From the NCBI RefSeq assembly GCF_964199755.1, contig NC_133897.1, forward strand, positions 167,536,678-167,600,677: 64,000 nucleotides of DNA. The letters run 5' to 3'. The position numbers were made by a program, and so were the translations under genes. Source of the stretch: Larus michahellis. Its lineage: Eukaryota > Chordata > Aves > Charadriiformes > Laridae. Shown piece after piece: positions 9,901 through 53,204 of the stretch. How positions within the stretch are numbered: position 1 is the first letter of the stretch; each line of letters begins with the position of its first letter. The notes beneath the pieces are model-generated. The model did not search any database. It was not told the DNA's origin and worked only from the letters and a program-made list of their open reading frames with translations.

Positions 9901-10015
9901 GGATGCACTTGACCTGGGCTACTGATTTCACCCCCAGTGATTTTTGTATTTTGGCCTTTTCATACCAACATGTTCTGTTGGTGAGAAGCACCGGAATTAA
10001 TACATGTTCAGTCAA
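6999..10015 (-). mobile_element. CR1 LINE, nearly complete ORF2 copy
   Basis: A roughly 3 kb CR1 non-LTR retrotransposon in antisense orientation. The 3' end is at about 6999, where three tandem CACAGAAT units (ATTCTGTG on the element strand) form the CR1 terminus. An A-rich patch at about 7067-7078 lies in its 3'UTR. Coding sequence runs from 7151 to about 10015 and covers the endonuclease and reverse transcriptase of ORF2. No ORF1 is visible beyond 10015, so the copy is 5'-truncated near the start of ORF2; full-length CR1 is about 4.5 kb. The relatively intact ORF suggests it is one of the younger copies in the window. Confidence 0.93.
7151..10015 (-). pseudogene. CR1 ORF2 (endonuclease-reverse transcriptase), two frameshifts
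   Basis: ORF2 is the polyprotein that nicks target DNA and copies CR1 RNA by target-primed reverse transcription. Three minus-strand frames together cover it. 10015-9704 holds the start of the APE-type endonuclease (NARSMGNK, ITETWW). 9771-9340 holds more endonuclease (LVGDFNLPDICW, LLDLLF). 9340-7151 is a 729-codon open frame beginning just before the endonuclease SDHEM motif at residues 13-17, followed by the reverse transcriptase: LDFGKAFD at 376-383, PQGSVLGP at 435-442 and the catalytic FADD at 463-466, then the CR1 C-terminal tail. The first frame break lies at a run of eight C at about 9725-9732, the second near 9345-9355. The RT part looks enzymatically plausible, but the whole ORF is broken. 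Confidence 0.9.
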
Positions 10016-10699
10016 GGACCTAACGCTTTCTCTTATGAGCCCCAGATGGCAACTATTGTTTTGAACAAGGCACTGGTGGATAAGGCTGCACTAAAAAAAG
10101 CCAGTGCTGGGTGTGAAGTTAAATGGTTCCGGGTCATACTCAAGAATGCCAAACCTACTTCTTTTTCTCACTTTTTACCACCAGGGATTTTCTTTAGTTT
10201 TCCTAATCATAAAATTCAACCATCTCTGCTGTTTGTGACTGTCCTTCCACTTATGGACAGGGATAGCATTGCTGCTATTGTTGTTGCAGGACCGCCCATC
10301 ATCCAGTACAAAATCAAGGATATGCTGGATTGGGTTATGTGCAATGAAAAGATCCTTTCTGTCCTACAGAGCCATGGAGTGGCTACACAGCCATGGAGTG
10401 ACAAGATGAAGGGAGGAAATGAAGACCTGAGGAAGAAAGCAATTTCCCCTAGGTCTCAGAGCAGCATGGCAGCAGAGATAGCAAAGGACACAACCCCTTC
10501 AGGCACTCTGTTCAACTCCTGCTGTGGTGGCCAATACGTGGCCTCATGCTCAGGGAAGATCTGCCTGTTCCCTCTGCAGTTCCATCTGCTCCTACACTGC
10601 TCTTTCTCCTGCCCAGTTGAGGGCAAGAAAAAACTGGGAGAAAAACAAGTAATGCTGGGTCTGGATCTTGGCCCACTAATGACAAAGGCTGTCAGATAA
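10004..10699 (+). other. Long open reading frame, no recognised family
   Basis: A 231-codon plus-strand ORF starting at the 5' edge of the antisense CR1 and running into adjoining DNA. I recognise no domain in it. It contains Cys- and Ser-rich stretches and a low-complexity hydrophobic segment in the second half, and has no obvious promoter or splice signals. An ORF this long is uncommon by chance in 64 kb, but codon choice and composition do not look like a conserved gene. It is most likely a chance ORF. Confidence 0.2.
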
Positions 10700-11723
10700 C
10701 GTCATTCATCACCTGTTATTGCTGCTCTGAGGCTTTTTGCTAGGGGATGCCCAACTTGAGGGCATCCATGGGGCTGTTCCTGCTTGGTTTTGGCCCCTGT
10801 TGTTTTTGGTGGACAGCAGTTATAGTTTCTAGGACTGAAGTAAGATCCTCTTTCTCCCCCTGGAAAGAACATCTTGGTCTCTTTTTCCCTTTTCTCTCCT
10901 GCTGGCCCTGTTCCACATGCACATACTCAATTTAGTCCAGAGATGCTTTTTCATTAACAGAGCTGAACTAATGTCGCCTGTTTTCCCCTTTATCATTTTG
11001 ATAAGCTCCATCTGTCCCAGGGGGAGGGAGGGAAGAGTTTCAGAGTATAAAGATGGACTGCTGGAGCCATCTGAGAAAGAAAACCAGAAAAAAGGCAATG
11101 CACACACACAAAAAAGGAAAACAGAACTCTATGTTGGTTCATCCATGGTGTTGATACAGACAAGCTGGGTAATAGATTACTGACTGGTGCTCTGTCTTTG
11201 CATGAGGCCATTAATCATGACTATTGCCTGGCTTGATTTATTTTTAAAGACTGCAGTAAGCTGGCAGTATCTGTGAGGGAAAGTATTCAAGCTTCACATA
11301 TGTCAGGCAGAGAGAGCAGAGCGCGATGGGAACAGGCAGCAGACGGTGAGCTTCAAAGGAACAGAAAAATAAAAACCCCCTGCAGCAAAGAATGCCTCAG
11401 AGACAAAACGGGAAGCCTACAGCCTGCTATGCTATTCAGGAAGATTTTATTAGTAGGCTGTAAAACCCCAAGCAGGAGAGTTGGGCTGGTCTGTTTTAAA
11501 GGGACATGGAGGAGGTTTTTAGACTTTCCTAGGTAATTCGTAATCCCTGCCAAAACTAAATATTTGTCATGTTGCAACCTCAACTGTGTTGTTTTTTGTC
11601 TGGCAGGGAACACATCCATTCACACTGGAGAAGCAATCTTACTCTGCGAGAGTGAGGTGCTTGCAGTCACTTTCCATTTCACAGTCCCACAGAGCCAGGC
11701 CTGGATATTAGGTATTTGTGGTG
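10016..11723. other. No supported gene
   Basis: Apart from the unassigned ORF at 10004-10699, this stretch holds no motif-bearing frame, RNA gene or clear repeat. Confidence 0.45.
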
Positions 11724-12246
11724 CATAGAATCATAGAATGGTTCGGGTTAGAAGGGACCTTAAAGATCGTCTAGTTCCAACCCTTCTGCCCTGGGTAGGG
11801 ACACCTCCCACGAGATCAGGTTGCTCAAAGCTCCATCCAGCCTGGTCTTGAACACCTTCAGGGATTGGGGCATTCACAGCTTCTCTGGGCAACCTGTTCC
11901 AGTGCCTCACCACCCTCACAGTAAAGAATTTCTTCCTAATATCTAATCTAAATCTCCCCTCTTTCAGTTTAAAACTGTTCCCCCTCATCCTATCATTACA
12001 CTCACTCATAAAGAGTCCCTCCCCATCTTTCCTGTAGGCCCCCTTTAGGTACTGGAAGGCTGCTATAAGGTCTCCCTGAAGCCTTCTCTTCTTCAGGTTG
12101 AATGACCCCAACTCTCTCAGCCTGTCCTCATAGCATAGGTGCTCCATCCCTCTGATCATCTTTGTGGCCCTCCGTTGGACCCATTCCAACAGGTCCATGT
12201 CCTTCTTGTGTTGAGGACTCCAGAGCTGGACGCAGTACTCCATCAT
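11724..12246 (-). mobile_element. CR1 LINE 3' fragment
   Basis: Antisense CR1 fragment. The 3' terminus at 11724 reads CATAGAATCATAGAATGG. The minus-strand frame includes the CR1 C-terminal part ([47 protein letters not shown]). Similarity stops at about 12246, where the element is 5'-truncated. The open frame extends past this edge into unrelated DNA to 12372. Confidence 0.9.
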
Positions 12247-15273: not shown

Positions 15274-15679
15274 CATAGAATCGTAGAATCAATCATAGAA
15301 TCATAGAACAGTTTGGGTTGGAAGGTAGCTTTAAAGGTCATCTAGTCCAACCTCCCTGCCATGAGCAGGGACATCTTCTACCAGGTCAGGTGGCTCAGAG
15401 CCCTGTCCGAGCTGACCTTGAATGTTTCCAGGGATGAGGCATCTACCACCTCTCTGGGCAACCTCAGCCAGTGTTTCAGCACTCTCATTGTAAAATATTT
15501 CTTCCTTATATTTAGTCTAAATCTATCCTCTTTTAGTTTAAAACCATCACCTCTTGCCCTATTGCAACATGCCCTGCTAAAAACTTTGTCTCCATCTTTC
15601 CTGTAGGCGGCCTTTAAGTACTGGAAGGCCGCTATAAGGTCTCCCTGGAGCCTTCTCCAGGCTGAACAACCCCAACTTT
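15274..15679 (-). mobile_element. CR1 LINE 3' fragment
   Basis: Antisense CR1 fragment with its 3' end at about 15274 (CATAGAATCGTAGAATC, then CATAGAATCATAGAAC). The body matches CR1 3' consensus in order, including the CATCTAGTCCAACC and TTCTCCAGGCTGAACAACC segments, and then ends. Frames are broken by several stops, so it is an older copy. Confidence 0.88.
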
Positions 15680-26528: not shown

Positions 26529-26936
26529 CTGTAAAAGAAAACGAAAAGTGCAGCAGCTCTGGTTAGATATCTAAAGTGCAGGGTACAGAGGATTTCTCAG
26601 GAGATGGGGTTAAATTCAGCTGTGCCAACCAGGTGTCTACAGCCTGGAGGTCCCACTAGATATTGGGATATTGGTGTCTAAGCATTTGTCAATGGTCCAG
26701 CAGAAGGAAAGGCATGATGTGCACTGTCCCCAGAGCATTATTTATTGGGGCTGGTACTTGGGTTGTACATCAAGAAGCTGAAATCCCACCTATCTGGTGG
26801 TGCCAGCCTCTTGTAACCATTGGGGCTGAAGTCTCAAGACCAGCACAGATATTTCCACCTGGGCTATTCAATATCTTGAGTCAGGGCACTGGGAAGGCTA
26901 AGAAAGGCCCATAAGGATAAGATGAGAGGTAATTAC

Positions 26937-27115: not shown

Positions 27116-29236
27116 CTGTAACAAAGAGAAGATAATGCTTGTAATGCACGGCCAGCTCATCCTCAGCAATGACACCCACTCCCCCACCACTCATCCCAGG
27201 TCATTAGTGAGAAATGCTCCCTTCTCTCTGCAGACATAGCCATTGCCAAACTAACTCACTCTAAACAAGTGAGAGGAGAGCCCCCACTGTTCCTGAGGCC
27301 GACTCACTTCTACCAAGGGTGCAGAGCAGACATGCGTCTCCTTTGGGCTGCGCATGGACCTGTGATGTATTGCCACAGCTGGGGACTCAAGCACAGGGTT
27401 TCATGTGGCAGGTCCTTGTGCTGGACTGATGAAGAAGTTTTCAATTTTCTCCCCATATTAATCAGCAAATGCAAGGTATTGTCCTGTTTGGCATCTTTTC
27501 CCACACACTGTCCTTTATTTCCCTTTGGATGTGTCTCCCTTCCCCTTTCTCCCAACCCTAATCTGTCACTTACAATCCTTCACATCCCATTTCATTTTTA
27601 TTTTTTTTTTAATCCCACTGCAAGTTTCCTACTGGGCAGGCGATGGCTAATTTAGGTCTGAGGAGTGCACAGAAGAGAATGTCAGAGAGTTGCCTTACCT
27701 TCATCCTCTTGGAAGGAGGCACGCCAAAGGTCTTCTGAGCCACCGGTGCCACATGTCACTGCTGAAGTAGTGCAAGGAGCATCTCAGGGGCATTCCTGTT
27801 GCTGCATCCCTGCCACATCTCTTGCAGAGCTGTTGCTTATTTGGTCTGGTGGTGAATGCAGATGATGCTCAAGATGTGTCAAGCCTCAAGAAGCTTTGAA
27901 GAGCCAAACTTCCTGAATATGTGTTACAGCAGTTTCATCTCAAAGTCCTATCATCAGGTGTTAGCCAAAGCAAGGTGAATGCTGAGCATTACTGTCTCAA
28001 AATGGAAAACGTCAAAGTCCAAGTCCGTCTCCATCCATGGCAAGGAAATGTTGTAGAAATTTCTTTGTGAATAGACAACACTCTGTCCTCAGGTGCTCCA
28101 GGTCAGAGGTGCCAGGCTTTCCAAGAGCATTTTGAATCTGTCTGTGTGAGTAGAAACTCTTTGCTGTGGTGCACAGGCTAACACTGTGCTGGGACACACA
28201 CAGCTCCTCTCTTCACTTCTTTTTGCTTTTACATGGCAAAAGCTTCTTTTGTCTCCACACATCAGCATGGACACAATTTGCTTCTCTGGGGATATTTTGC
28301 TCTGGATTTAGGATGTGTTTGTTTGCTTCATTCAAAGTATAAGGATTTATTTCCCTTACCTTCCCCCCACCCTCTCAAAATAAAATAGCTCTGGTGCCTC
28401 CTCTCTCCACGTTTACACCCTCTCTTCTCTGAAAGGAAGCAGACTGGCCCTTCAATAAGTAAGCTCAGAATTTAATTTGAAACTCTTGTTTCCTGCTGAA
28501 TGCACAGTATAATGTGCAGAGAAAGGGTGAAATTTGCCTCTGCACTGCAGTGGCCTTGATTACAGTAAACTAGTAAGAGCCTCTTGAGAGGAAAAACATT
28601 AAAGCAGGTATTAGGTGCAGTGAAACAAAAAACACTAAAAATAATCCAGATTTTTAAGGTTTTCAGTTTCTGAACTCTTCTAAAAAACATTTAAAAAAAA
28701 TATTTAATCCTTTGGAGCAAGTAAGAACAGGAGATTGCCAAGTGAACAGAAGCCCAGTGGTAAATCATAAATGGACAAGGGTCAAAAGAAAGATGTCTCC
28801 TCAGGACAGGGACACCTCTTCAGCAGAGGGAGGAGAGAAGGAGAGATCCAGATGGGTAGGAACCCTCAGCCAATTGCTGCACTCCTATGAAGTCCTTGAA
28901 AGCTGCCAGTGTAAGCGGCTGCTTCTGAAGTTGGGAATTGTCTCTAGTTTCTTGTCAGGGATCTCATAAAATTGTCCGTTCCCCACAGTGGTGCAAACAG
29001 TATCTTCAGCACCACCGTATTGCATGGCTCAGGTGAGGTGGGCAACCACATCCTAAGGTGCCTCTCCCCTATCGCCTCCCTCCCCCCACAAGCAAAGGTA
29101 ATTCCTCTGCTATGGGCTATTGGACTGAGCACTTCATGTCTTGTCTCAACTGGAACCTCTCTCCAAGGAGAAGCTTCCTAAATACGCCCCCTTCTCTCTT
29201 TCATGTAACCCAGACTGCTGCCTCCCTTGGACTAGC
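27116..29236 (-). other. ARC 3' flank: 3'UTR and probable intron
   Basis: Sequence directly downstream of the ARC stop codon on the minus strand. No coding frame continues. Candidate donors are GGGGAAG|GTAAGG at about 28361 and GATGAAG|GTAAGG at about 27702. An acceptor-like CTTCCTTTCAG lies near 28431. The simplest model is that exon 1 carries the CDS plus several hundred bases of 3'UTR and ends at about 28362. Only cDNA can show which site is used. Confidence 0.4.
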
Positions 29237-30454
29237 TCATATGACAGTAGCTGGTGGGCTAGGGGGCTGCTCAGGTTGAGTCCCATTGCTTGGCACAGGA
29301 CTAGCAGTAGTTGAGGGAGGCACGGTCTCCACAGAATCTCCTGATTGAACCTCAGGGGTCCTCTGTGGACTGGGCTCCTCAGAGTGGTCCATGTTGCCTT
29401 GCACTTCCTTCCCTCTTTGGATCAGCTGCTCTAAGGTCTTGGGCAAGGGGTAACTCAAGAAGCGCTTCAGTTTGGGCTGCAGGGTGCCTACCACATACTG
29501 GATAATTTCCTCCTCATCTGCATCAACATAGAGGGTCTGGTACAAGTCTCTCTTGCGCCAAAGGAACTGGTCCAGGGGCTCTCCCTCTTTCTGAGGCAAA
29601 TCCAGCTCCCTTTTGATAGCATCCCTAGTCAGAGTCCCCTCGCTATACTGAAGGAACTCCTTCTTGAACTCGACCCAGTTCTTGACAGAGTCCTGCTTGT
29701 ACTCCCACCACTTTTTAGCTGGCCCGTTCATGTGGTTTTGGATTTGAGACAGCCAGTACTCCTCTGTTCCACCCACCTGCTTTAAGTATTCTTCCAAGTG
29801 GCTCAAGAACTCCCGGGGATCCTCAAAGACCTGAGTCTCCACCGGAGAGGCTGGAGCATCCTCTGAAACAGAGATCCACTGGTAGGAATCATGGGCCTGG
29901 GGGATGCTGGGCACCTCCCCAGGAGGAGGGGTCAGTGCATACATTTGGCTCATATCAAGGGCATAGTCATAAATCTCACCCTCACTGGGCCTTATCTCCG
30001 GACCTCCCACCCCAACGGACACAGTCTGTTTGCCATGGTCCCCAGGGCAATATTTGCCTCCCATGGACTCCAGACGGTCCGCCCACTTCTCCAGTCGGAA
30101 AAAAACTTCCTTCCAAACATTCATCTCTCTCTTGACCCACCTCTCCAAATGGGCAATGGTTTCCTGGCACCTGGCCAGGCAGGCCTTGATGGACTTCTTC
30201 CATCTTTGGTTATCAGTTGGGACATGGTCCTCTAAGTTATTCTCTAACTTCCCCACTGATTTCTGCAAGCCTTTCAGTTCGCGCTCCACCTGCTTGGAGA
30301 CCTCAGACAGGAGGTGCCGGTGGGTCCTCCTGACATGCTCCAACATTTCTGCCCTGCATTTCCCTATCTGCAAGATCACATTGGGCTTATTGGCAACTCC
30401 ACGGTGCCCCTGGAAGGAGTGGATGCCTGCATTGGTGACATTATCCAGCTGCAT
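29237..30454 (-). CDS. ARC: ARC, activity-regulated cytoskeleton-associated protein (Gag-derived capsid protein)
   Basis: Intact single-exon CDS of 405 codons; human ARC is 396. ARC is a neuronal immediate-early protein at postsynaptic sites that drives AMPA-receptor endocytosis. It descends from a Ty3/gypsy Gag and assembles into capsid-like particles carrying RNA. From the sequence: a basic N-terminal coiled-coil domain at about 20-135 includes the oligomerisation motif MNVWKEV at 111-117. A flexible linker with TPPPGEVPSIPQ follows at about 140-205. The capsid N-lobe is at about 207-278 (EDPREFLSHLEEYL, AKKWWEYK), the C-lobe at about 279-365 (DQFLWRKRDLYQ, YVVGTLQPKLKRFL), then a Pro/Ser-rich tail. 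No CCHC zinc knuckle is present, as in other tetrapods. The ATG at 30454 is chosen because it starts the known ARC N-terminus; the frame runs 35 codons further up without another ATG. The -3 base is G. Stop TGA at 29237. No frameshift or stop inside. Confidence 0.97.
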   Translation of the reverse strand: MQLDNVTNAGIHSFQGHRGVANKPNVILQIGKCRAEMLEHVRRTHRHLLSEVSKQVERELKGLQKSVGKLENNLEDHVPTDNQRWKKSIKACLARCQETIAHLERWVKREMNVWKEVFFRLEKWADRLESMGGKYCPGDHGKQTVSVGVGGPEIRPSEGEIYDYALDMSQMYALTPPPGEVPSIPQAHDSYQWISVSEDAPASPVETQVFEDPREFLSHLEEYLKQVGGTEEYWLSQIQNHMNGPAKKWWEYKQDSVKNWVEFKKEFLQYSEGTLTRDAIKRELDLPQKEGEPLDQFLWRKRDLYQTLYVDADEEEIIQYVVGTLQPKLKRFLSYPLPKTLEQLIQRGKEVQGNMDHSEEPSPQRTPEVQSGDSVETVPPSTTASPVPSNGTQPEQPPSPPATVI

Positions 30455-30976
30455 GGCTCCAACCGCGCGAGTGTCAAACAAAGACAGAACTGGGTTGTAA
30501 GCCCTGGCACTAGAGCTTGCTCTCAAAAACCCCACCACAACACTTCCCAAAAGACACACAGAGACTTCTAAACCCCCCTCAAAGGACTTTTCAACACAAA
30601 CACAACCAAATCAGATATCACCGCAGAGCGAGCTGTTCGGTCCCCGTGGATCCCAGAGAGAGTTGTAGGCAAATTTCTCCCGGTGCCCAACTGGAAATGC
30701 CGATCTCACGTGTTCTAGGTGTCCCAGAGAGAGCCAAGATCCTCCAGGAACAAGGAGAGGAGTTGTCTAAGATGTCCAGCCCCACACACTTGCCTGCTAC
30801 CTGCTCATCCGAAGCTGAGAATCTTGAACAGCAGAGAGCCGAAAAACACACAGAGATGTACACAGAAGCTGGAAGCTGCTGCAAAAATCCCGGTGATTTC
30901 TCCTCCGGTAAAGTTGGCGAGTCAAAAGCGCTTTCACTAGAGATGCAAAGAGCTGCTTCTCTTCCCTGTCTGAACT
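30455..30976 (-). other. Predicted ARC 5'UTR
   Basis: Leader of about 520 bases between an initiator-like start (GGCAGTT, A at 30976, 32 bases below the TATA box) and the ARC ATG. It holds one upstream ATG, at 30808, and an E-box CACGTG at about 30708-30713. The exact start, and whether any 5'UTR splicing occurs, are not known from sequence; GAGCAG|GTAGCA at about 30800 is a possible donor. Confidence 0.55.
30797..30808 (-). CDS. Minimal upstream ORF (Met-Ser-Arg-stop) in ARC leader
   Basis: The only ATG I find in the predicted leader opens a three-codon frame, ATGAGCAGGTAG, ending at 30797, about 340 bases before the ARC start. Such minimal upstream ORFs can lower initiation at the main start codon and make it stress-sensitive. 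Whether it is translated is unknown. It overlaps a donor-like GCAG|GTAGCA, which is another reading of the same bases. Confidence 0.35.
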   Translation of the reverse strand: MSR

Positions 30977-31000
30977 GCCACTAGTCCAGGCTCTTCCATC

Positions 31001-31008
31001 TACTTATA
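31001..31008 (-). promoter_or_regulatory. TATA box of ARC
   Basis: TATAAGTA on the minus strand within GGGGTATAAGTAGATGG, placed 32 bases before an initiator-like A. TATA-driven initiation is usual for immediate-early genes, including ARC. Confidence 0.75.
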
Positions 31009-31070
31009 CCCCACACAGCTCAACATGTGGGTGGTGCCCTGCCTCCTCTCACACTCTCAGCACAGCGTTC

Positions 31071-31075
31071 ATTGG
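31071..31075 (-). promoter_or_regulatory. CCAAT box
   Basis: CCTCCAATGAAC on the minus strand puts a CCAAT pentamer about 95 bases above the predicted start, the usual position for NF-Y binding. GC-rich SP/KLF-like sequence follows at about 31132-31150. Confidence 0.5.
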
Positions 31076-31390
31076 AGGAAAAGCGAGGCCGGTGTCTGTG
31101 GCAACCCAGATCTTGGCAGCCTCCCCTCGCTTCCCACCCCCTCGCGCACGCCCCCAGACTCGACGCGAGAAGCACTTGAAAGGTGCTGGAGACAGTTGGA
31201 TAGATGGATGAGTAATCGCACCTTCCGCCTTTCAGATTGCAGGAAAAACACTTATTCATTCCACAACTATTTACTCAGCAAGGTCATCATTAGCATGCTT
31301 CCCCTGGCAGGACTCGCAGAGGGGGAGATGAGGAGGAATTCAGTGTGTCACACCAAGACAGACACCCACGGGCCCCCGCACACCCTCCCA

Positions 31391-31412
31391 TGCGTGCATA
31401 TACACACACACA
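31391..31412. repeat. Short AC-rich tandem repeat
   Basis: TACACACACACACACAGTG-type dinucleotide run upstream of ARC, next to the purine tract below. Confidence 0.6.
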
Positions 31413-31458
31413 CAGTGTGCTCACTCCGAATGCAAATGCTTTGGAAATGGTGGTAAAG

Positions 31459-31527
31459 CAGCAGGGGGGGGAAGAAATAAAAGAGAGAGAAAAAAAGAAA
31501 AGAGGAGGGGGGAAAGAGAGGGGGAAA
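31459..31527. repeat. Purine-only tract upstream of ARC
   Basis: Roughly 70 bases almost entirely G and A on the plus strand, with runs of 8 G and 6 G, about 0.5 kb above the ARC start. Mirror-like purine tracts can form triplex or G-quadruplex structures. On the ARC sense strand it reads as a pyrimidine tract. Confidence 0.7.
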
Positions 31528-31811
31528 CACTAAAAGGAACCAATTCAGTGCACACTGGAGCACTCTGGACTTTGTAAAGCATTGGTAGGTGGGAGTCATC
31601 CCCACTGCTTAATTGCACCAGACCAACCGCTATCTTGGGAATATTCGGTAAGGGGGGGGGACAGCATCCTGGTTTTTACACCAAATTAAATCCGCCCATC
31701 AAAAGCCTGTTCCGTACTTAGCTTGAATCAGATGCTTAATCAGTTAGCCAACCCACAAGCGCAGATGAAGCTACATTTGTTCTTTGCTCTTGACAAAGCA
31801 GGAAAAGACAA

Positions 31812-31821
31812 CCATAAAAGG
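31812..31821 (-). promoter_or_regulatory. CArG box (candidate serum response element)
   Basis: CCATAAAAGG fits the SRF consensus CC(A/T)6GG exactly. It lies about 0.84 kb above the predicted ARC start, with a palindromic CArG-like CTTATATAAG 12 bases away at 31833-31842. SRF sites are known to drive activity-dependent ARC transcription in mammals. Use here is inferred. Confidence 0.5.
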
Positions 31822-31964
31822 AGTCCCCGGGTCTTATATAAGCCAGAGATAAAGGATTCCCTAATCCGAGAGAGTTCCCCGCCGGAACACCCTCAGAGTG
31901 GTTCTGAGGACATCCGGGGCTTCTCATCCCCTCGCAGTGACAGTGGCTGGAGGCAGTGGGATGC

Positions 31965-31971
31965 TGACTCA
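31965..31971 (-). promoter_or_regulatory. AP-1 site
   Basis: TGACTCA, inside TGCTGACTCA, which also fits half of a MAF-type site. It lies about 0.99 kb above the predicted ARC start and 144 bases from the CArG box, which fits an upstream activity-response cluster. Confidence 0.45.
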
Positions 31972-31975
31972 TGAA

Positions 31976-33089
31976 TATCACCTAAAATGGGGTTTCAAGC
32001 CTGTTGCCAGCAGGGAGGTGCTTTGCCTCCACTCAAGGTAGTGGGCAGTGTGCCAGGGAGGCTTAGGATGGGTCCCTGCTCCTGTGGCTCATGGCCACGT
32101 GTTTCCTGGTGGGACTGCAGTCAGCCTGGTACAAATAAAATGCGGAGGAGACGAATGGTCTTTCAGTAAAGTCCTGCTGAAAGGAGGTCTCAGTGACCCC
32201 ATGCGTTTGGTTAAAGCAGAGTCCCCTTGGAGCAAATCAGTAGTGACTAAGCTGAAGGGCATGAGAGACAGGTTTCAGGACTCTCTTTGCCCCTCATATC
32301 TATGTTCTGCAGGAAGGTACGTGTCTATTCCTTACCAAGTGATGGCATATGGACAAATGCTTCTGCTGTATGGCTCTCGGGAAATAGGAGTGTTATTTAG
32401 GGCAGCAGCAAGCTGACATAGAAGGGCTGCATGTTGTGGTTGAAGGTTGGGAGTGCCAGCGAGTGAGGAACGGGACAAAAGCCTGAGGGTGTAAGTCAGG
32501 GTTCCTAACCTAGCGGACGCTCCCGATGCTGCTTTATCCCCCACACATATCATGACAGTGATATGACTTGCTTACTTTTCCAGTTTCACCCACCTTTCCT
32601 TAGCATGAGATTTTTGCACATCTGTCTTAGTGTTTAGAGAGGGTCAAATGTCAATCATATGAGGGTTTGGGACAAATCTGGAGACTTTTATGCTGTGGTC
32701 TCTGTACCCCAGAAAGTCCACCTTAAACCTGCCTTGCCAGTAAAAAATCACACAAACTGGGAGAGATTGTGCTATCTATGTATCTCTGAATTAATGCAAA
32801 GTTATTCTTTGGAAAGGTTCTCACCCAAGACCCCCAGCAATGGCACTTAGGAAATTGCCAGTAGATGGGGAAAAGATGGGGACTGGATTTAAATTCACAA
32901 GGTGACCTGATTTCAACCTCACTTTGTCCATCAGATGCCAGAGTCTGGGATGAACTGGCTGTAAAATCTACTCCATCAAATCTGCATTTCCAGCCCTTGC
33001 TACCTCTCTTTCCTTTTCCCTTAGTTTTCAGTATGCAGGGATTCATCAGAATCTGAATGACCTTTTATGGTGCTTAGGTCTGGCCATAA
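31976..33089. other. ARC upstream DNA, no gene seen
   Basis: No exon-like frame. The stretch belongs to the upstream flank of ARC and may hold further regulatory DNA. I could not point to specific sites beyond those listed. Confidence 0.4.
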
Positions 33090-33845
33090 GATCTCAGGAT
33101 TATTAAGATGGGAAAGGACCTCGGGAGGTTTCTAGCTCAACCTCCTACTCTAAGTTGGGTCAACTACTCAGTCAGATGAGGTGGTTCAGGTTTCAGATAC
33201 TGAAAACCCCAGGGATGGGGATTGCAGAACCCTCTTTGGGCATCATGGTCCACTGTGTGACTGTCCTTAAAGGGAAAACCTTTTCCCTTATACCCAGGCT
33301 GAGTGTTATGTTTCAAGTTATGCCTGATATCCCTTGTCCTCTCACCAGGCACCTCTGTGAAGAGTCTGTCTTTATCTCCTTGATAACCTGCCCACAGGTA
33401 GGGGAGACAAGCCCTGGTCCCACACCAGGCACCAGGCAAGTGCTGTAGCCCTCTCCATGTCAATGATCTGTGCTGAACTCATTCCAGTTGGTGAATGTCT
33501 TGTACTAAGGAGCCTAAACCTGGTTGCAGCAGCTAGATATGGTCTAATAAGTCCTGAGTAGAGGGGGATAATCACTTCCATTGATCTCCTGGCTGTGCTC
33601 ATGCTTCCACAGTCCAGGATACCTTTTTTGCTGCCAGGACACACTGCTGGATCATGCTCAGTCTGCTGTACCCCAGCAGTCCCAGGTCCATTTCTGAGCC
33701 CCAGCCAGTCAATTACTGCCAGGGACTCTTTCTTCCCAGGCACAGCATTTATCCTTGTAGAATATCGTAAGGTTTCTGTTGTCCCTTTCTTCCGGCTCGT
33801 CCAGGTTTCAAGATACATCTCATTCAGCAACCTTTCCATAGAGCT
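33090..33845 (-). mobile_element. Old, diverged CR1 LINE fragment
   Basis: Antisense and much decayed. The 3' part reads GATGGGAAAGGACCTCGGGAGG, then CTCAACCTCCTACTCTAAG, which is diverged CR1 3' sequence. Further in, the minus-strand frame contains EVIIPLYSGLIRPYL, the CR1 tail word usually written EVI(L/V)[14 protein letters not shown]. Divergence is well above that of the other copies, so this is an early insertion. Confidence 0.7.
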
Positions 33846-36754
33846 CTCCTCCTAATCTGTGTGCTTTTCTTCTGCGGAGGTGGTGGGGGAGACAGGAGAG
33901 GCGAAGAGGAATGGGGGTTTTCCTTCTGGACCAGCTGGGGAATGACTTGCTGATTAAGACATAGTGATGAGCATTTTCATTGTATTTCTAATTAAAGCAA
34001 AGTACGTAGGTAGAGGAGGAGGAGAGAGGGGAGCCGGAAGCAAAGGGAGGAGGGAGACAGAGTGCTGCCAGTTGACAGAAAGAGGCAATTTGAGGCAGAC
34101 AGACATTTTCCGGGCACAGAGAGACAGGTGGGCATGGAAGTACAGGAGCCATAGACTGGGGCTGACTGGGAAGGAAGCTCTCATTGACACAGCAGCTTTA
34201 TCCCAGGGAATTACAAAGAGGCAGGCAGAGTCCTGTTGAAATTAGTTGCCTGGCCTCAGCAGAACTGGCAATAGGATGGACGGAGGAGACTGCAGGGTGT
34301 GTGGTGCTCTGGGTGGCCACAGGAGGTCCAAGACAAGAGCTGGGCAAGAAGAGCAAAAGGGAGGGAGGAAGTGAGTATGAGGGAGGAAGAAGGGTGAGCA
34401 GTGAGCAGGGGTAGTTTCCTCCAAAACAGATGAGCAGGAGCAGAGAGAGTAGATAGAACAGCAAAATCTACATCTTATAGCTCTGTGGGGATGGTGTCAA
34501 CATGGGTTATCTCCCTAGAGCTTCCTGAACAGTTTTAAACAGCAGATTAGGATCAGACCCCCAAAAAATGAGGGGAGAGAAAAAAAAAGCCTACAGACTA
34601 ATTACTGGCAGAGAAAAGGAACGCATGTCAGCAAGCAGCAACAGAAAACCCCTCTGGGGGGATGAGGACCAAATGAAAGGGGCACTGAGTCGCAGCCAGA
34701 ACTGGCACCCTCCCCAGTGCTGTCACAACAGTGCTTTGCCGAGGACACAAAGTACCCAGAGCCCAGTGGCACTCATCCTTTGCAGCCATTCAGGCTGCAG
34801 GCTTTCTCTGCACCTTGCCTTAGAGCAAACTTGATGGAGCTTGTTTTTTTTTTTTTTTTTTGTAGTTGACATCCCTTTGCCACTTCATCTGGATGAGCGT
34901 TTTGCTCAGAACTACCTTATGGCAAGGCATGCCACTTCTTGGAGATAAGCCTGAGCTGTGAGCCAGATGAACCTAGTGGGTGAGTGAGAAGGGGGAGATC
35001 CCAGGGCTTGGGAAAGTTTATGGTGCAGCTGAATTGTGCTGTCTTTTAGTGTCTTGTGCTCATAAGAGCTCTGCTAGATGCTATATTACCCTACTGTGAT
35101 GCCAGGGCCCCTCCACAATTAGGCAATGTGATGTGCATTGTGTTTCTTCTCTGAGCCACTGTCTGGAGGACCCTGTCTTTCACCAAAGACTCTATGAAGT
35201 GCCTAAAGTTAGAATTCTGAAGGCCAGTGTGCAATTAATCCCGTGCTCTTGCAGGAACCAAATTTTTCTACTGGTGAACAAGGGAGTTTCTGTGTTATCC
35301 TATATCTGTTGTGCTAGAATTTTCTCTTTTACTTCCAGAATAGCTTCCTCCCTATACAAGAAAAAAGAAAAGAAAGAAAAAAAAAAAAGAAGAAACCACA
35401 ATCACTCCCTTCCACCTCCATGCCCTTTCAATCCCTATCAATTCTCCTGTAAATTAGTAGACAAAGCTGGCCAGTCATTTATTTGGTAACAAAACCCTCA
35501 AGAAGGCAATAAAATTAAGAGAAACCAAGGTGCCAGGCTTTTTAATTAAAAAAGAAAAACAAAAAGAGGAAAAAGAATAACATGTTTAATTTACACCATA
35601 CATTCTTATTCATCCATCTCCAGCCCTGGAACACTTTATTGCATTGAAGCTGGCACTCCTGGCACTCACAAAGCAGAGTTTCACATTCAAAACATGGTTC
35701 ACGTCAGCGGCTGTATTGTTCCTGGCCACCCATTGTCCTCCACGGCGGGGGCCCACATATCACGTGCTGGGAAGGTGGGGAAGCAAGAAAGACACTGAGG
35801 GCAACCTTCTATCAATATTAAGAATAATCATAATAATTATTATTATTGCCACTCCTTCTAGCGCGGAGGAGCCTGCAAGTTCTCTCTTTTTTTTCTTTTC
35901 ATCTGAAAGCCCTACTTTGTGGGGAAGATAGAGTGTTTTGTTTTCAGACTAAAAATATCTTCTGTATTTTACAGGGTTTTTTTCTCCATGTATTTAATGG
36001 GATGTTTGTGATTTTCGTTTCCTCACTGGGCAGAGAAAATGTTAATGAGTGCCTCCTTGTGCTGCGTTTCCCTCCTCAAGCCTGCCTGAGGCTAAATCAA
36101 GAAAGTCAAAGGAGGTGTCAGTATTTTTCATGGCAATAAACTGAACTCTGGTGTTGGCTGTTATGACCCTCATGAGGTCAACACAAATAGAAAGACATCT
36201 ATAAAATGAACTTCATTTTCCTCCCATGCACATCACTGACAAGCTGGTAGAGTATATTTGTTGCTAGCAAAACAAGCAAGCCCCCTGTTGAAGGGCCTGA
36301 TTCATGTGTGGTTTATTAAATCTCATCTGCCTTTATGCCACAAGGCTGAGAGCTGAGTCTGGCCCACGTTTGACTGCACGCTTGACACTTCCCCCATTTG
36401 CCCCCATTTAGGGTGCCCCTCTAAGTGTTCTAGTAAAAGTTTCTGAATTTAGTGATTTTTTTTTCCTCCTCCTTGGCAGCAAACACTGAAAATCACAGGT
36501 CTGCTAAATAAGGAAAAGCAGTGGGGTGGCTGTGAAGTGCACAGCCCTGGTTGTGGCTTGGCTGACAGAGTCCCACTGGTCCAGGAGAGCTGTGCTCCTC
36601 GCCTTCTGCCAGGATCATGTGCCCATGTTGATTTAAGGACTTTCTGTGACCCACGGAGCCCGTCCCACCCTCCCCTGCAGTCCTGGCCCTGCTTTGCCAT
36701 TTCTATCTGGTTTCATGTTAATATGTCCATGGCACTGCAAGGTGATGGTAGAGG
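33846..36754. other. No gene seen; low-complexity patches
   Basis: Purine-rich DNA at 34010-34110, a run of about 19 T near 34843-34861, an A-rich patch at 35360-35392 and an ATT-rich patch at 35810-35848. A CRE half-site CACGTCAG near 35699 and a MEF2-like CTAAAAATAT near 35949 lie 4.7-5 kb above ARC. No exon is supported. Confidence 0.4.
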
Positions 36755-36915
36755 AGCACTGGGAGAAGAGAAGGCTCCAGAAAGACCTTATAGCAGCCTT
36801 CCAGTACCTAAAGGGGGCTTACAGGAAAGATGGGGAGAGACTCTTTATGAGGCAGTGTAGTGATAGGACGAGGTGTAATGGTTTTAAACTGAAAGAGGGG
36901 AGATTTAGATTAGAT

Positions 36916-38298
36916 CGGAAGGTCAGAAGAAGGATCTGGGGAACTACAGGCCTGTCAGCCTGACCTCGGTACCAGGAAAGATCATGGAGAGGATCATCTT
37001 GAGTGAGCTCTCATGGCAAGTGCAGGGCAGCCAAGGGATCAGGGCCAGCCAACATGGGTTTAGGAAGGGGAGGTCCTGCTTAACCAACCTGATCTCTTTC
37101 TCTGACCATGTGACCCACCTTCTGGATGCGGGGAAGGCTGTGGACGTTGTCTATCTGGACTTTGGGAAGGCCTTTGACACCGTCCCCCACAGCATTCTCC
37201 TCGAGAAGCTGGCGAATCATGGCATAGACAAGTGTACTCTTCGCTGGGTTAAAAACTGGCTGGATGGCCGTGCCCAGAGAGTTGTGATTAATGGGGTGAA
37301 ATCCTCTTGGTGGCCGGTAACCAGTGGTGTCCCTCAGGGCTCAGTTTTGGGGCTGGTTTTGTTTAACATCTTGATTGATGATCTGGATGAGGGGATTGAG
37401 TGCACCCTCAGTAAGTTTCCAGATGACACCAAACTAGGTGGGAGTGTTGATCTGCTTGAGGGTAGGAAGGCTTTCCAGAGGGACCTGGACAGGCTGGATC
37501 GATGGGCCAAGGCCAACTGTATGAGGTTTAATAAGGCCAAGGGACGGGTCCTGCATTTTGGTCACAACAACCCCAAGCAACGCTACAGGCTTGGGGTAGA
37601 GTGGCTGGAAAGCTGCCCAGCAGAAAAGGAGCTGGGGGTGCTGGTGGACGGCCAGCTTAACATGAGCCAGCAGTGTGCCCAGGTGGCCAAGAAGGCCAAC
37701 AGCATTCTGGCCTGTATCAGGAATAGCGTGGCCAGCAGGAGTAGGGAAGTGATTATGCCTCTGTACTTGGCACTGGTGAGGCCTCACCTCCAGTACTGTG
37801 TTCAGTTCTGGGCCCCGCTGTACAAGAGGGACATTGGAGTGCTGGAGTGTGTCCAGAGGAGAGCTACCAGGCTGGTGAGGGGTCTGGAGACCAGGGCATA
37901 TGAGGAGAGGCTGAGGGAGCTGGGCACGTTTAGCTTGGAGAAGAGGAGGCTGAGGGGAGACCTCATTGCCCTCTACAACTCCCTGAAAGGAGGTTGGAGA
38001 GAGGTGGGTGTTGGCCTCTTCTCCCAGGTGAATAATGACAGGACCAGAGGAAATGGTCTGAAGTTGCAGCAGGGGAGGTTTAGATTAGATATTAGGAAGA
38101 ATGACTTTACTGAAAGAGTGGTCAGGCACTGGAACAGCCTGCCCAGGGAGGTGGTTGAGTCACCATCCCTGGAGGTATTTAAGAAACGTGTAGATGTGGC
38201 ACTTCAGGGCATGCTTTGAAGGGCAGAGATTGTAGGTTGTTTGGTTGGACTTGATCATCTCAAAGGTCCTTTACAACCATGAAGATTCTATGATTCTA
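36916..38298 (+). mobile_element. Inner CR1 LINE nested in the outer CR1
   Basis: A plus-strand, 5'-truncated CR1 of about 1.4 kb inserted into another CR1 of the same orientation. It begins within the reverse transcriptase region (GGGGAACTACAGGCCTGTC) and ends at ATTCTATGATTCTA at 38285-38298. A TAGAT pentamer is present at both edges (36911-36915 and 38297-38301), possibly a short target-site duplication. Its family matches the 7-10 kb copy rather than the outer element. Confidence 0.88.
36984..38219 (+). pseudogene. CR1 reverse transcriptase fragment, altered catalytic box
   Basis: Open frame of 411 codons covering most of the CR1 reverse transcriptase and the C-terminal tail. Visible motifs are LDFGKAFD at 59-66, PQGS at 118-121 and a catalytic box reading FPDD at 145-148 instead of FADD. 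Both aspartates remain, but proline replaces the alanine before them. The endonuclease and fingers are missing because of 5' truncation, so it is a dead copy despite the long frame. Confidence 0.9.
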
Positions 38299-38528
38299 GA
38301 TATCAGGAAGAAATTCTTTACTGTGAGGGTGATGAGACACTAGAACAGGTTGCCCAGAGAAGTTGTGGTTGCCCCATCCCTGGAAGTGTTCAAGGCCAGG
38401 TTGGATGGGGCTTTGAGCAACCTGGTCTAGTGGGAGGTGTCCCTGCCTATGGCAGGGGGGGTTGGAACTAGATGATCTTTAAGGTCCCCTCCAACTCTAA
38501 TTGTTCTATGATTTTATGAGTCTATGAG

Positions 38529-41500
38529 ATCACAGCCACACAGGGAAAAAGAAACATTGTCCTTTTTGGTGGCAGATTGCCAGGCCATCAGACCATACCC
38601 TTGATCATGTGGTGAGCCAGGGGAAGCTGTGCAGCCACATATCTTTGCAGTACCAGCTACTCACATGACAATGAGAGAGTGGCTCAGACTGCCCCGTAGC
38701 TTACCCACTTCTGCTCCTCATCATGCTGTTCCCATGGGTGAGACTGTGTTAAGCCCCTCCTTCACTTTCTCATCACCTACATGGATTTTTTCTCCTGGAC
38801 TAGGGAACGTGGGAAGGGGCATTAGGGGTGGTGGGAGCCTGCTTTTCCATCAGTGATACTGGACTGGCTCATGGGAACATTTTTTAGCTGCAGACTCCCA
38901 GCTACAGGCTGTGGAGAGGAGGAAGCAATGGGAGATTCCTGTGGTAAGCTTGACTTCATGTGCTGCTGACGTCTCTCCTCCACACAAACCCATCACTCAT
39001 CCATTGCATCCTCCTGGGTGCCTTTCAGAGGAGGAGAGGCCATAACAGAAATACTGCCTTGTTGCAATTGTTAGTAGCCAGTCACAGTCCCATGGAAATC
39101 CACCACAGCCCCTTTTCCCCACCAGATTACATAGTCCTACCCTTCCTGTGAATGCCAACAGCTCTGTTCCTTTGAGGGGAAATATCAGAGAAAATGCTGA
39201 GAGAAAGCAGGTCCAGATCTGGGGGGGGGGGGGGACGCAGAATCCCCTTTGCACACAATATTGTAGGTATCTTCCAAGACATGACACAGCAAGAAAAGCC
39301 ATGTTTGTTTGGGCACCTCCATGCTAACCTCATTCTCAAATTCCTTATAAACTTCCTTCTGGCTGATGTCCCTAAACCTAGCTTAGAGAACTCCACATTC
39401 ATAATGGGGACATGCTAAACAGGATTATTTTTATGTATTCAGGTCCAGATCCCTTCACTTTCAAATGTGTATAGTCTAGTTTTCTGCTTATCCAAAAATA
39501 CTCTTCTCTGCCTGAACCATGGATCAGTTGTTGCCTCATTGAATAGATGGGTACTTGTTTGGTTTTGTTTTTTTCTCTTTAGGCACAAATAAATCCCCTC
39601 TAAATGCTTTATTTACTCTCATTCATACTGAAATCCCCAAACATGTTCAAACCTGCCTATACCAGCCCAACTAGGATTTGGCCTCATAGGTGCCTTCAGA
39701 CAACACCCCTGGCAGGTTCAAAGTCATCTTCTGTCTAATTTAGCACTAGAGTTTCTACCCAGGTGTCCTTGGTGCTGGGACATTCCTAAAGATAAAGGAA
39801 ACACTGCATTATTACAACTAATTTTGTGGACATGGTTTACTTGCTTGTTTCTTGTAATGTCTGGATGGTGATTCCCTTGCCCATGGACCATGAACATCCT
39901 GAGATGGTGGGGTATAGGTTGCTCTGCCTCTCTTTTAATAGGAATGTGTGTCTGGCTTTTTGCAGTGGACTCCATTAAGGCATCACAAAGGGCACCAAAG
40001 GGACACAGGGCCTTTCTATAGGGCACAAGATTGCTGCTCCCAGACAAACCCATGTCTCCAGAGCTCCATATGCTGATGTATGTCAGTTCTTACCTAGCTG
40101 CTCTGACAGCCATCATCACCGTGAAGCCATAAACTAGGCCACAGCTCACCCATTTTTAGAAATTGTATTACTCAGTGGTTGCTCAATTTACCTTTTTTCA
40201 AACTTTTCCTTTTACTTCTCCTTCTTCTAAGCTATTTTTCCTATTTTCTTCTCCCCTGCGCATCATTGTTAACAAAGGATTTCCCCTAAGCATCCTTGCT
40301 TTCTGTTGCTAATCTCTCCTAGCCACTGGGAGACACAGTTTGAGTCAGTGCAGGAGTTGTGTCCCCTCGGCTCAAGATAACAACAGAGCAGCTGCCTCGT
40401 GTGGTAATGGGGAGCCTGCATCACTAATAAAAGAAAGGGTAACATTAAGTCACTTTTGAAGGGGAGGAAGCCTCATTCAGAGCATCCTCATCCTCCTCTA
40501 ATTCAACTGCTTTTTCCATTTCCATTATTTAAGTCTCTGTAAATGAGAGATGGATAATTAGGGGCAGTGGGGAAGCTCAGGGGAAACAGAAATGTGAGAA
40601 GCAAGCAGCAGACTGTACTAATTTCTTCTTTCCAAATGTATGAGGCCCCAAAGATCACTAAAAGACATATTAGATCAGGGCTAGCAGGAGCTGGGGAGTG
40701 AGCTGCTGTGTAAACCTCTACAGGAGCTTTCCCTTCCCCGCAAAAAAGTTCGGCACAGTGCCACAGCTCCCCAGTACATCACTACCCCCACACTGAACAC
40801 AACTGCTTGGTGGTCTCAGGCTGGGAATATCCATGGGAGAAACGCACTGCAGAGGCTTCACATCTCTACACTGAGAAAGGTGTGTATTTGGGAGCATGGA
40901 AAAAAATGGGAGTGTTAGGTGGAGATGTATGTGTGGGTCCTATTTAGAGCTTGAGACCTGGAAGGTCCATGGGTCAGGGGCTGCAGGTCCCATATGAGGT
41001 GCAATCTGCTCTGAGACAGCATGAGGAGGACAAGGACAAGGAGTCACTTTTTAAGGACAGAGGATTAAGAAGCATCCATCTGGGACAGAAGCGATCCTGA
41101 CACCGCTCTTTTCCTTGCTAGTGCCTCCCCATACGATCATGGGAAATTACTCAATTTCCATTCTCCTTATGGATGTTGTCTCTCAGGAGGGGTGGTCCCA
41201 CCTGGACAGAAGACTGCTGAGAAGGGAAGATTTTTCCCCACAGATCGGTTCAACCTCAGCAAGGCCAAAAATGGGGGAAAAAGAAAAGGAAAAAAGAAAA
41301 AAAGGGGGAAAAATAATCAGAGGCTGCAATTACAGTCAGGGTTATTTACGCCCGATTTTAATGAAAGGCCCCTAAGGACTGAGGAATGATATTTTAATGT
41401 CCTTCAGACATGACCTGAGGGGAGATGGTCCTGCTGTAGGGCTATGGGGATGGGACAGGCAGTGCTGCCCTGTTCCACAGCTCCTGATTGCAGACCAGTG

Positions 41501-44500
41501 GATGCTGGGGAGGCAGCGTCAGCTCACTCACAGTACAATAGGATTTAGCTCTCCATGGGTCCTTGCAGGAATGTTGCAACAGGAAAGAGGGAAGGATCTG
41601 GGGGGAGATACAGGAGTGTCCAGCCAACCAAACCAATGTTTCTCTGCCTATCTCATCTATTTCTCCCAGCTTGACACAGATGGTGGCTGCGCCACTGACC
41701 TTCTCAAAGAAACTCCAGCCCACGCTGTGGGGGAGGATGCGGTGTCCTGGATTTCCCACCTCACACCCCCATTTTCTGTTTTTCAGCAGTCGGGGTTGGC
41801 TGCGAGGAGGAAGGGGAGGGAAAGACAGCAGCTCTGTATTAATGAGTTCATTCCTTACGAGAAGCCTGGTAGAGGTTAGTATCCATCCCTGCGGCTACCT
41901 GAAGCCTCCCAAGCCGCCCCTGAATGAGACACAGAGATGGGTGGGCGCACGGAGGAGAAGAGGTGAGTGGGAGCAGGGAGAGGAGCAGACAAAAAGGATG
42001 AGCAGTGTGTGTGTCAGAGAGATCGGATCTGCGGCACGCTCCTGCCTTTCCCCCACCTGCCTGCAAACAGGGAAGGGAGACAGCCTGCCGGATGAGCTTT
42101 GCAGGGAGTGAAAATGGAACAGGACAGCCCCCCTGGGGCATTGCTAAAAAAGGGATGTTGTGGGCATGGCTCCCTAAATGTGGTGCCTGCTCGGGGTGGG
42201 TTATAGCCATTTTTCCTCCTCCCCAGGCTCTTCACTGTGGAGGGAGAGTGGTATACCTGCAGTGCTCCTTTGGTCAGAGCCTGGAAGGCTCTCTGAAGTT
42301 ATGCTAGTGATAAGGGAGTTTGTGAAGGAGGGAGGAAACCCTAAGATTTGGAGTTTTATGACCCCCACGATGAACACATGCAGACTCCTCCTTTCCGTCC
42401 ATTGCTTGGTCTCCAAAATCCTTCAACTCCCTCCCCAGGTTTTGCATGTAATTGATGTGCACTATTTGTCTGCTATGTCAAGTCTTGTGAGGGCAATGCC
42501 ATCTCATCAGGGTCCGTTGTGTTTCTGACAGCAGTCATGCAGGAAGCTGACTGAACATCAATCTCTACCTAAAGCTTTTGGTGCGGACACAAAGGTTCTT
42601 AAAATCACATTTCTCACTTACACTATTAACAAGGAAGCTGTCATTTTCCAGAATAGTCATGGGGTAGGGTGTCCTTCCCAGGAGTTGTGGGAAGCCATGT
42701 TCAAAACACCTTTCTTTTAATTAGGATATGAATTATGATTTCTTCACAACTGAAGAGCTCCAACCTCCACATAGAACCATCTTCTGCAAGAGCATTACCA
42801 TTTTGGATGACTCATCAAATATCCATCAGGCCAGACCAAGGTACAGACCTGCCAGTGTTAAATCTTGGAGTACATACCCTAGGACATGCGTCCCATATCT
42901 TGCAGGAAAGTTAAAACCATCTCCCTGCTTGTGCCTATTCAGTCACACACAAAGCGTAGGGATCGCACAAGGAGTGACCAAGTCTTGTCCTGACCCAGAA
43001 GTGCCTCACCAGGTGTTCACCTAAGACAGAAGGCTCCAGATCAAGAAGGGATCTGAATTCACATCATCCCGGCTGGCCACCCCTGTTCACCCACCCTGAG
43101 AGTGCCTTATTTCTTCACTCAGCCCCATAAACAGAGGGTTTCCACATCAGGCCCTGTTAGCTGTGCTTGAGTTTGCATTGTCATCTGGTAGAGTGCAGAG
43201 AAGACCATGGAGGCTCAAAAGGCAATTATCTAAGAGCAGCCAGGTAGGGTCTTGCTCCATCTCTGAAAACACACTTTCTTCACCTTAATTTGGGGACTGA
43301 AAAAGCAGTAAGGACCTTTTTCTTCTCTTTCCTCATCTTCTCTCTCTAAATATTTGTTTGGATTGCCTGTGGCATTTAGAACAGCTAAAATTATCTCAAT
43401 TAAATATCTCCACTCTTTTTCTTTGTTCTCTTTTTCTTTCTGGCTCTTTCCTTCCAGGCAGCTGGAACACATTCTTTAGACATTCTTTAAAAACAAAAGA
43501 AAAAAAACACGCTACCCCAGACACCCAACAGCTAAGATTCATGTAGCTTCAGTTAGGCTTTATTTAGAAACATGGATGAAATAGATGATGTGAAAAAAAT
43601 GAAAAGATCCATGCCCTAGTCCTCATCACAGGAAACAGGGGAGTAGTCTTACCTAGTCCACCAAAGTCATCACTTTGTGGATTACAGGTCTACTGGAACT
43701 GTGGGAGAAAGGGCTAAAGGGTTGCACACTGATTTTTGGGGTGTACTTCGTGCCACGAGGTAGGAACATGATAGTGCTGTTGTGCTCCAGGATGTTCCCC
43801 CTGCCTGTCCATGTGTTCATCATAACAATATCTGGCCCTTTTTATTGACCCTTCAGGTCTGCAAATTCCCTGCCAGTCTGTTTTGGGAGAGAAAATTCGT
43901 TCCCAACATCAAATTTGGCAGCTGCCTCATCCCTGTGCCTGACAGCATGAATCACCAGAGTTAAGTAACAAACCCATTTATACATCAAGATACCATCACT
44001 GTCCAAGCAATCATTCTTATGTTTTTCAATGTGAAGCCGATTACTGTGGATTCTGCCTGTACTTATTTTATTCCCCCTCCTTTGTTCCCTAATTTTCCTC
44101 CCAATAACTTCTGGATTTTTTGCAAAACAGAGAAAAACTTCAGAAGGGGGCTGGGATGCTAGGCAGAGTCAGAAAATATTTTCCAACCCCCAAGAAAAGT
44201 TGTTTACTACTAATTTTGTGAGTTTCTGGGAAACCTCTCAGGGAATCTCACCAAAGCCTTTTTGGCAAGAAAAAATGGTTTGCTAATGAGGTGGTACACC
44301 ACCTGGTTTGTGTATTATTGTCTTACAAATATATCTACATACCCCCACACGCTTTAATGCACCTGTTATTTTTACAAGGGTTTTCTTGGTGCTTTTTTTC
44401 TGGCTTCTTAGTACGTGTTTTATTGCTCTGGTCTATTGACAGTTATTAAAAAAGTGATTCCCGAATGCATTTGGTTTATCCTTCTGAAAATGAAGTTTTG

Positions 44501-49436: not shown

Positions 49437-49697
49437 GGTTTTAGGTTTCAAACTGAAAGAGGGTAGATTTAGATTGGATATCAGGAAGAAATTCTTTACT
49501 ATGAGGGTAGTGAGGCACTGGAACAGGTTGCCTAGGGACGTTGTGGCTGCCCCATGCCTGGAGGTGTTCAGGGCCAGGCTGGACGGGGCTTTGAGCAGCC
49601 TGGTCTAGTGGAGAGGTGTCCCTGTCCATGGCAGGGGGGTTGGAACTAGATGGTCTTTAAGGTCTGACCTGAACCATTCTATGATTCTATGATTCTA
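49437..49697 (+). mobile_element. CR1 LINE 3' fragment
   Basis: Plus-strand CR1 tail starting in the [14 protein letters not shown] region and ending at ATTCTATGATTCTATGATTC near 49697, with the consensus words in order. It is one of four CR1-derived pieces within about 1.2 kb around the tRNA gene. Confidence 0.88.
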
Positions 49698-49996: not shown

Positions 49997-50069
49997 GCTG
50001 AAGTAGCTCAGCTGGGAGAGCGTTAGACTGAAGATCTAAAGGTCCCTGGTTCAAGCCCGGGCTTCAGCA
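49997..50069 (+). tRNA. tRNA-Phe (anticodon GAA)
   Basis: A 73-base sequence that folds as a complete cloverleaf. The acceptor stem is GCTGAAG/CTTCAGC, the D stem GCTC/GAGC, and the anticodon stem TTAGA/TCTAA around loop CTGAAGA, with GAA at 50030-50032. The T stem CCTGG/CCGGG has one G-U pair, and the discriminator base is A. The internal promoter A box (TAGCTCAGCTGG) and B box (GGTTCAAGCCC) are present, and a Pol III terminator TTTT follows at 50073-50076. The genome does not encode a CCA tail here, which argues against a reverse-transcribed tRNA copy. Two acceptor pairs differ from the usual vertebrate tRNA-Phe, but both remain paired. No intron. Confidence 0.95.
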
Positions 50070-50597: not shown

Positions 50598-51419
50598 CAG
50601 GGACATAGTTTTACAATTCAAGGGCCTCAGCAAAAATAGTGATATAAAGGGGTTTTTTGTTCCCTCAACCTTGAGCTGCCTGTTCCTAGTCCTGTGTCAT
50701 GGACTGGCCCCATAAAAAGGTACTAATGTTGACCCACTGGTGTATGGGACCATGCAGGAAATCAAAACTGTGATTTAGGAAAAGGAAAAATGCCCTATCA
50801 AAAAAGAACTGATTTTAGTCTGCATCACAACCGACACTGAAGCAAGTCCTCTCCCTAAAATTTGTCTTTTTCCAGGCTGAAGAGTTTCTGGTGTGTCTAC
50901 CTGTTGCTTATAGGGAAACAGCTCCAGATCTTTGATGAAGTTTTCTACTCTTTCCTGAACCTTTTATTCTCTTACACTGACCTTTATAAAATGATAATAT
51001 TCAATGTGTGGGCACCCCAAAGAGTTCTACAATGGAGTAGCTGTGTTTTGTGTTTTGCTCTCCATCCCTTTCTGACTAATTCCCGATCTGTGGAGTCATT
51101 CAGGCAAACAGCAGAGACAAGACCTGAATTGCCAATTGTCCAAAAAAAAGAAGTAAGAAGCAGTGAACATTTGACTATTGATTTCTCAAAAAACAACTCC
51201 AATAGTCATCTGTCTTCCCCTCCATAGCAGGGCAGAGACCTCTTCTTTCTGCCTTTCATTCTGATGGTGCTCTTTGATCTCTGGATGTAACCGTTATCAG
51301 ATCCTGCAGAACTTCCAGGACATGACTTCCCTATCAGGATTTGGATAATGACTTATGTGTAAGTCAATGACATCATCACCTTTTTAAGCCTTGAAGAGAT
51401 ACCACGGGGCCGCTGAGCA
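50598..51419. other. No gene seen
   Basis: Between two CR1 elements. The overlapping frames at 50862-51227 have no recognisable motif. Confidence 0.45.
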
Positions 51420-53150: not shown

Positions 53151-53204
53151 TCTATCAACAGTTACCACCCACTAGCAGGTAGGACCAGAACATCCATTGC
53201 CCTC

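Follow-up and report, generated by a model that had tools for sequence, protein, structure and literature searches.

An uninterrupted frame on the minus strand of the 64 kb stretch of DNA analysed here (the window) almost certainly encodes the bird ortholog of ARC (Arg3.1), a descendant of a Ty3/gypsy-type (Metaviridae) Gag whose expression, partner binding, assembly and RNA carriage are ascribed to it by homology. The frame runs from 30454 down to 29237 (1218 bases, ATG to TGA) and encodes 405 residues without an internal stop. Measured from stop to stop it spans 457 codons, whereas in 60 simulated versions of the 64 kb window (first-order Markov) the longest frame was 233 codons (mean, 184), so its length is far beyond chance. 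An earlier note on this DNA had described, with no strand given, a complete 405-codon frame at these positions, and both its coordinates and the sequence features it named proved correct. The features are collected in Table 1.

Table 1. Positions of the ARC coding sequence, its domains, candidate regulatory elements and retroelement frames in the window
Feature	Position	Strand	Basis or details
ARC coding sequence	29237..30454	-	Single open frame of 405 codons, then TGA
Arc_MA domain (two N-terminal helices), residues 45-151	30002..30322	-	Pfam PF19284; model helices 27-75 and 82-130
Oligomerisation motif MNVWKEV, residues 111-117	30104..30124	-	Counterpart of rat MHVWREV 113-119 (excerpts of PMC11880080)
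Capsid N-lobe, residues 210-271	29642..29827	-	Pfam PF21395; fold match to human ARC N-lobe structures
Capsid C-lobe, residues 274-356	29387..29635	-	Pfam PF18162; ARC C-lobe structures matched by fold
Tail rich in Pro and Ser, residues 357-405, predicted disordered	29240..29386	-	pLDDT <50 at all residues but one
Candidate TATA box TATAAG	31003..31008	-	Motif scan; about 550 bases upstream of the ATG
Candidate activity-responsive cluster	31812..31990	.	CArG boxes at 31812 and 31981; AP-1 site at 31965
Candidate 3'UTR intron 1	27116..27698	-	Donor AAG/GTAAGG, joint first of 361; acceptor TTTGTTACAG, eighth of 579
Candidate 3'UTR intron 2	26529..26936	-	Donor CAG/GTAATT, fourth of 361; acceptor TTCTTTTACAG, third of 579
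Reverse-transcriptase frame	7154-9391	-	Pfam; beside endonuclease frames
Reverse-transcriptase frame	36909-38216	+	Pfam; nearest reverse-transcriptase frame to ARC
Reverse-transcriptase frame	51514-53151	-	Pfam
Endonuclease frame	9343-9771		Pfam
Endonuclease frame	9707-10090		Pfam, below cut-off

Homologues and orthology of the frame

A protein search, which the earlier note had named as a check, returned a bird ARC as its best match. This protein, named ARC by NCBI, comes from an eagle, Morphnus guianensis, belongs to a cluster of 394 members and is 98% identical to the translated frame. The two proteins share the same domains and agree in length within one residue. They differ by eight substitutions and one single-residue gap, an extra Gln at 396, and seven of these nine differences lie in the linker or the tail. 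Identity was 87-88% to two turtles and 67-73% to the named mammals (coverage at least 87%). At least one ARC-specific Pfam domain was borne by all 48 matches listed in the single-sequence search and by all 51 listed in a 27-row profile search. Among the source-named matches listed, none carried the name of an LTR element (0 of 38 and 0 of 40, respectively), and 10 and 11 matches had no source name. Both results apply to relatives that share exact words with the query and have 0.55-1.75 times its length. No crocodilian was named among the matches listed in either search, and the assignment to a bird as opposed to a crocodilian relies on the 98% identity.

In a sequence search of the PDB, the best match was rat ARC 7r24 over residues 1-395 (E 6.6e-178), a chain in which seven Ala replace the oligomerisation motif. 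Fourteen of the 15 matches listed up to E 1 were ARC or Drosophila Arc, and the fifteenth (E 0.62) was unrelated.

We then placed the protein in a tree of 27 rows, consisting of the window and 26 of the 48 single-sequence-search matches. The window was sister to the sole other bird row, with support of 100/99. The bird pair stood beside lizards, snakes and tuatara (82/86) and away from turtles, which we take as weak tree resolution. Orthology, complete domains and the tree all agree with the earlier reading of the frame as an intact avian ARC, a domesticated Gag and a known gene. This identity, as opposed to a stray LTR-element gag, is well supported, and nothing met in the analysis contradicted it.

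The neighbours proposed in the earlier note, ADGRB1 and LY6/PSCA, were sought within the window by weak tests that miss short exons, and none turned up. Patterns for the C termini of LY6 and of ADGRB1 had no six-frame match in the 64 kb. A loose LY6 N-terminal pattern matched once, at 10708-10740 (+), and the match runs straight into a stop codon. When Pfam was run on 20 further frames, out of 369 with at least 60 codons, two matches fell below cut-off and none above. These neighbours may sit outside the 64 kb.

Domains, oligomerisation motif and predicted fold

Three ARC-specific Pfam domains were matched far over cut-off and along their full profiles: Arc_MA (E 8.5e-61, profile 1-108 of 108), Arc_capsid_dom (E 4.5e-45, 1-62 of 62) and Arc_C (E 5.6e-49, 1-83 of 83). 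These bear out the N-terminal coil domain and the two capsid lobes that the earlier note had recognised. Its Pro/Ser-rich tail was likewise present, with 12 Pro and 8 Ser among the 49 residues 357-405, and its MNVWKEV motif was found where Table 1 places it. A pattern check of the whole protein found no zinc knuckle (CX2CX4HX4C), again as had been claimed, and the protein contains four Cys in total. This absence is a weak mark of domestication, because the ARC-like metaviruses compared in the available passages of PMC11011659 also have no nucleocapsid domain next to the capsid.

In rat ARC, MHVWREV is the coil-2 oligomerisation motif, in which M113 and W116 are critical according to excerpts of PMC11880080. 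The Trp was identical in all 27 aligned proteins, and the first residue was Met in 24 of them and Ile in three. Six aligned mammals have MHVWREV, MNVWREV or IHVWREV, in contrast to MNVWKEV here. The 10 amphibian rows, with MNSW or MNAW and varied last residues, differ from amniotes at the third and mostly also at the sixth position.

A structural model built on the protein alignment predicted two long N-terminal helices, a disordered linker, a helical capsid domain at residues 213-356 (block pLDDT mostly 79-88) and a disordered tail. Confidence in the full-length model was modest (mean pLDDT 60, pTM 0.34). When the capsid part was compared with the PDB using Foldseek, human and rat ARC capsid domains came out on top (E 3e-16 to 4e-16), and the fold matches included 7r23, 6gse and 7r24. 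Drosophila Arc followed (best E 4.9e-4); weaker matches were the Ty3 capsid (E about 0.05) and the HIV capsid (E at least 0.1). In a library of viral-structure models, nothing matched the ARC model at E <=0.001. As modelled, this pattern is the picture expected of a domesticated metaviral capsid.

The protein shares its architecture and capsid fold with mammalian ARC, and it is 86-92% identical to the top matches of the fold search, four bilobar capsid chains from solved human and rat structures. Its Pro/Ser-rich tail differs in being longer than in the rodent and gorilla rows and ends in PPSPPATVI. Drosophila dArc1 and dArc2 also have a two-lobe capsid domain of metaviral origin and gave weak sequence and fold matches, but their identity in the fold alignments was 22-27%. 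They are not known to carry the N-terminal ARC domain. Domestication of dArc1 was independent, according to the available text of PMC11011659.

Retroelements and other repeats in the window

The capsid domain truly descends from a Ty3/gypsy-type element. Together with the Ty3 fold match and a Retrotrans_gag match (E 1.3e-4; 22.5 bits, under the cut-off of 24.1), this ancestry could point to the gag of a Ty3/gypsy-type LTR retrotransposon, either stray or recently inserted, with a mere resemblance to ARC, a misreading of which the earlier note had warned. We regard such an origin as barely conceivable, given the 98% identity to a named bird ARC, the relatives with ARC domains across tetrapods and the presence of the ARC-specific N-terminal domain. 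The surroundings of the frame argue the same way. Although the fold ancestry is shared with Ty3/gypsy Gag, neither an LTR pair nor a Ty3/gypsy pol was detected near the ARC frame. Between 20 and 42 kb, no direct or inverted repeats of at least 40 bases (14-base exact seed) were found, a search that very old, diverged LTRs would escape. Self-comparison of the window with blastn gave 90 repeat-copy pairs, none touching 15675-36754 (from 13.5 kb before the frame to 6.3 kb after it), and diverged LTRs would escape this search as well. In the 30 frames scanned besides ARC, there was no Ty3/gypsy-type protease, reverse transcriptase, RNase H or integrase; the only pol-like domains were RVT_1 and endonuclease.

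The nearest reverse-transcriptase frame, at 36909, resembles LINE, R2 and group II enzymes. Its 11 PDB matches were group II intron, LINE-1, R2 or otherwise named reverse transcriptases, and none was named retroviral. It is 85% identical to the reverse-transcriptase frame at 7154-9391. From their sequences, we read the reverse-transcriptase frames in the window as probable LINE pieces, presumably of the CR1 type, that are unrelated to ARC. The LTR-element reading was therefore rejected on the ARC domains and homologues, the absence of repeats nearby and the LINE-like reverse-transcriptase frames. We searched for the outcome that the earlier note had set against its own reading, best matches to LTR elements accompanied by LTRs and pol, and obtained ARC instead.

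Several other elements of the window were recorded. Three reverse-transcriptase frames of 436-746 codons remain open. The window has many interspersed repeat copies, LINE (CR1-like) judging from the reverse-transcriptase and endonuclease frames. Repeat copies lie near 4384-4938, 11716-12242, 15291-15674, 49444-49694, 54334-55311, 56516-56939 and 60042-60353, and two interspersed repeat copies are 89% identical across 1300 bases. A tRNA-Phe (GAA) gene or copy (67.7 bits) lies between repeat copies at 49997-50069 (+); Rfam, run on the whole window at gathering thresholds, detected one tRNA and nothing else. For a 122-codon frame at 50859-51224 (+), Pfam gave a probable chance match to HDA2-3 (E 0.0022), below cut-off.

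Candidate regulatory regions

Based on the candidate TATA box, we guessed the transcription start to lie near 30975. One upstream ATG, at 30808 and opening a 3-codon frame, falls between this predicted start and the ARC ATG. The observed/expected CpG ratio was 0.50 over 30455-31300 compared with 0.19 across the window.

The candidate cluster of CArG and AP-1 sites lies about 0.85-1.0 kb upstream of the predicted start, and a TTGAGTG motif joins it (31812-32036). Two CArG boxes within 250 bases plus an AP-1 site occurred in 2 of 1000 Markov simulations, for a motif set that was picked after the sites had been seen. On their own, four CArG boxes in the region turned up in 31 of the 1000 simulations, and a CArG pair in 26. 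AP-1 sites were not enriched in the region (3, versus a simulated mean of 2.5). Exact-consensus CREB, MEF2 and EGR sites were absent from 30455-42000, so a SARE of the mammalian type is not shown. Even the mammalian Arc SARE, as described in excerpts of PMC3561385, contains no more than half of a CREB site, and its MEF2 site has a mismatch. Serum response elements of mammalian Arc have been reported about 6.5 and 1.4 kb upstream, and their role is called not definitely confirmed in the available part of PMC8486535.

Downstream of the coding sequence, splice sites were scored with approximate splice tables, which yielded the two candidate 3'UTR introns of Table 1. Rival sites exist: a donor at 28359 scores equally, and acceptors at 25075 and 25688 score more strongly. 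Candidate intron 1 is preceded by, or contains, AATAAA signals (28351, 27602, 27519), so the transcript may end ahead of it. In mammalian Arc, two conserved 3'UTR introns target the mRNA to nonsense-mediated decay (passages of PMC5934489). It is possible, although we think it unlikely, that bird ARC matches mammalian Arc in having two such introns, and hence shares the switch that couples expression to decay, and that a compact proximal enhancer of CArG and AP-1 sites, responding to activity, accompanies them.

Because the coding sequence is intron-free, as in a retrocopy, we also weighed a retrocopy or pseudogene of ARC in place of a functional locus. We consider this very improbable. The coding sequence of mammalian ARC is itself a single exon, the frame here is intact and 98% conserved, and the candidate TATA box and introns of the 3'UTR sit where expected. 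Mammalian ARC is, moreover, noted for its 3'UTR introns (excerpts of PMC5934489).

Significance

Bird ARC is the preferred reading of the frame. By homology, the gene would be transcribed in activated neurons as a neuronal immediate-early gene. In the zebra finch, singing induces ARC, according to the available text of PMC6099458. The protein would self-associate via its N-terminal helical coil and two-lobed capsid domain, would bind synaptic partners in an N-lobe pocket, and might assemble capsid-like particles that carry mRNA. Such particles have been reported for mammalian ARC (passages of PMC11880080 and PMC11011659), and we infer from the mammalian protein that bird ARC may form capsids, as the earlier note had proposed, and transfer RNA. 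Among the papers listed in literature searches, none dealt with bird ARC capsids by title, an absence that is not proof.

The age of ARC is put at about 350 My or more, and the gene occurs across tetrapods, birds included (passages of PMC11011659). The copy described here is an already known gene and adds no new kind of system. Only two features offer mildly useful leads, namely the upstream cluster of CArG and AP-1 sites and the candidate introns of the 3'UTR; if these were true, the whole regulatory package, beyond the capsid protein alone, would date from the amniote ancestor. ARC is a textbook case of a retrotransposon Gag turned memory gene. Here it is confirmed as a bird ortholog that is intact and strongly conserved, and the misreading as a stray gag is removed.
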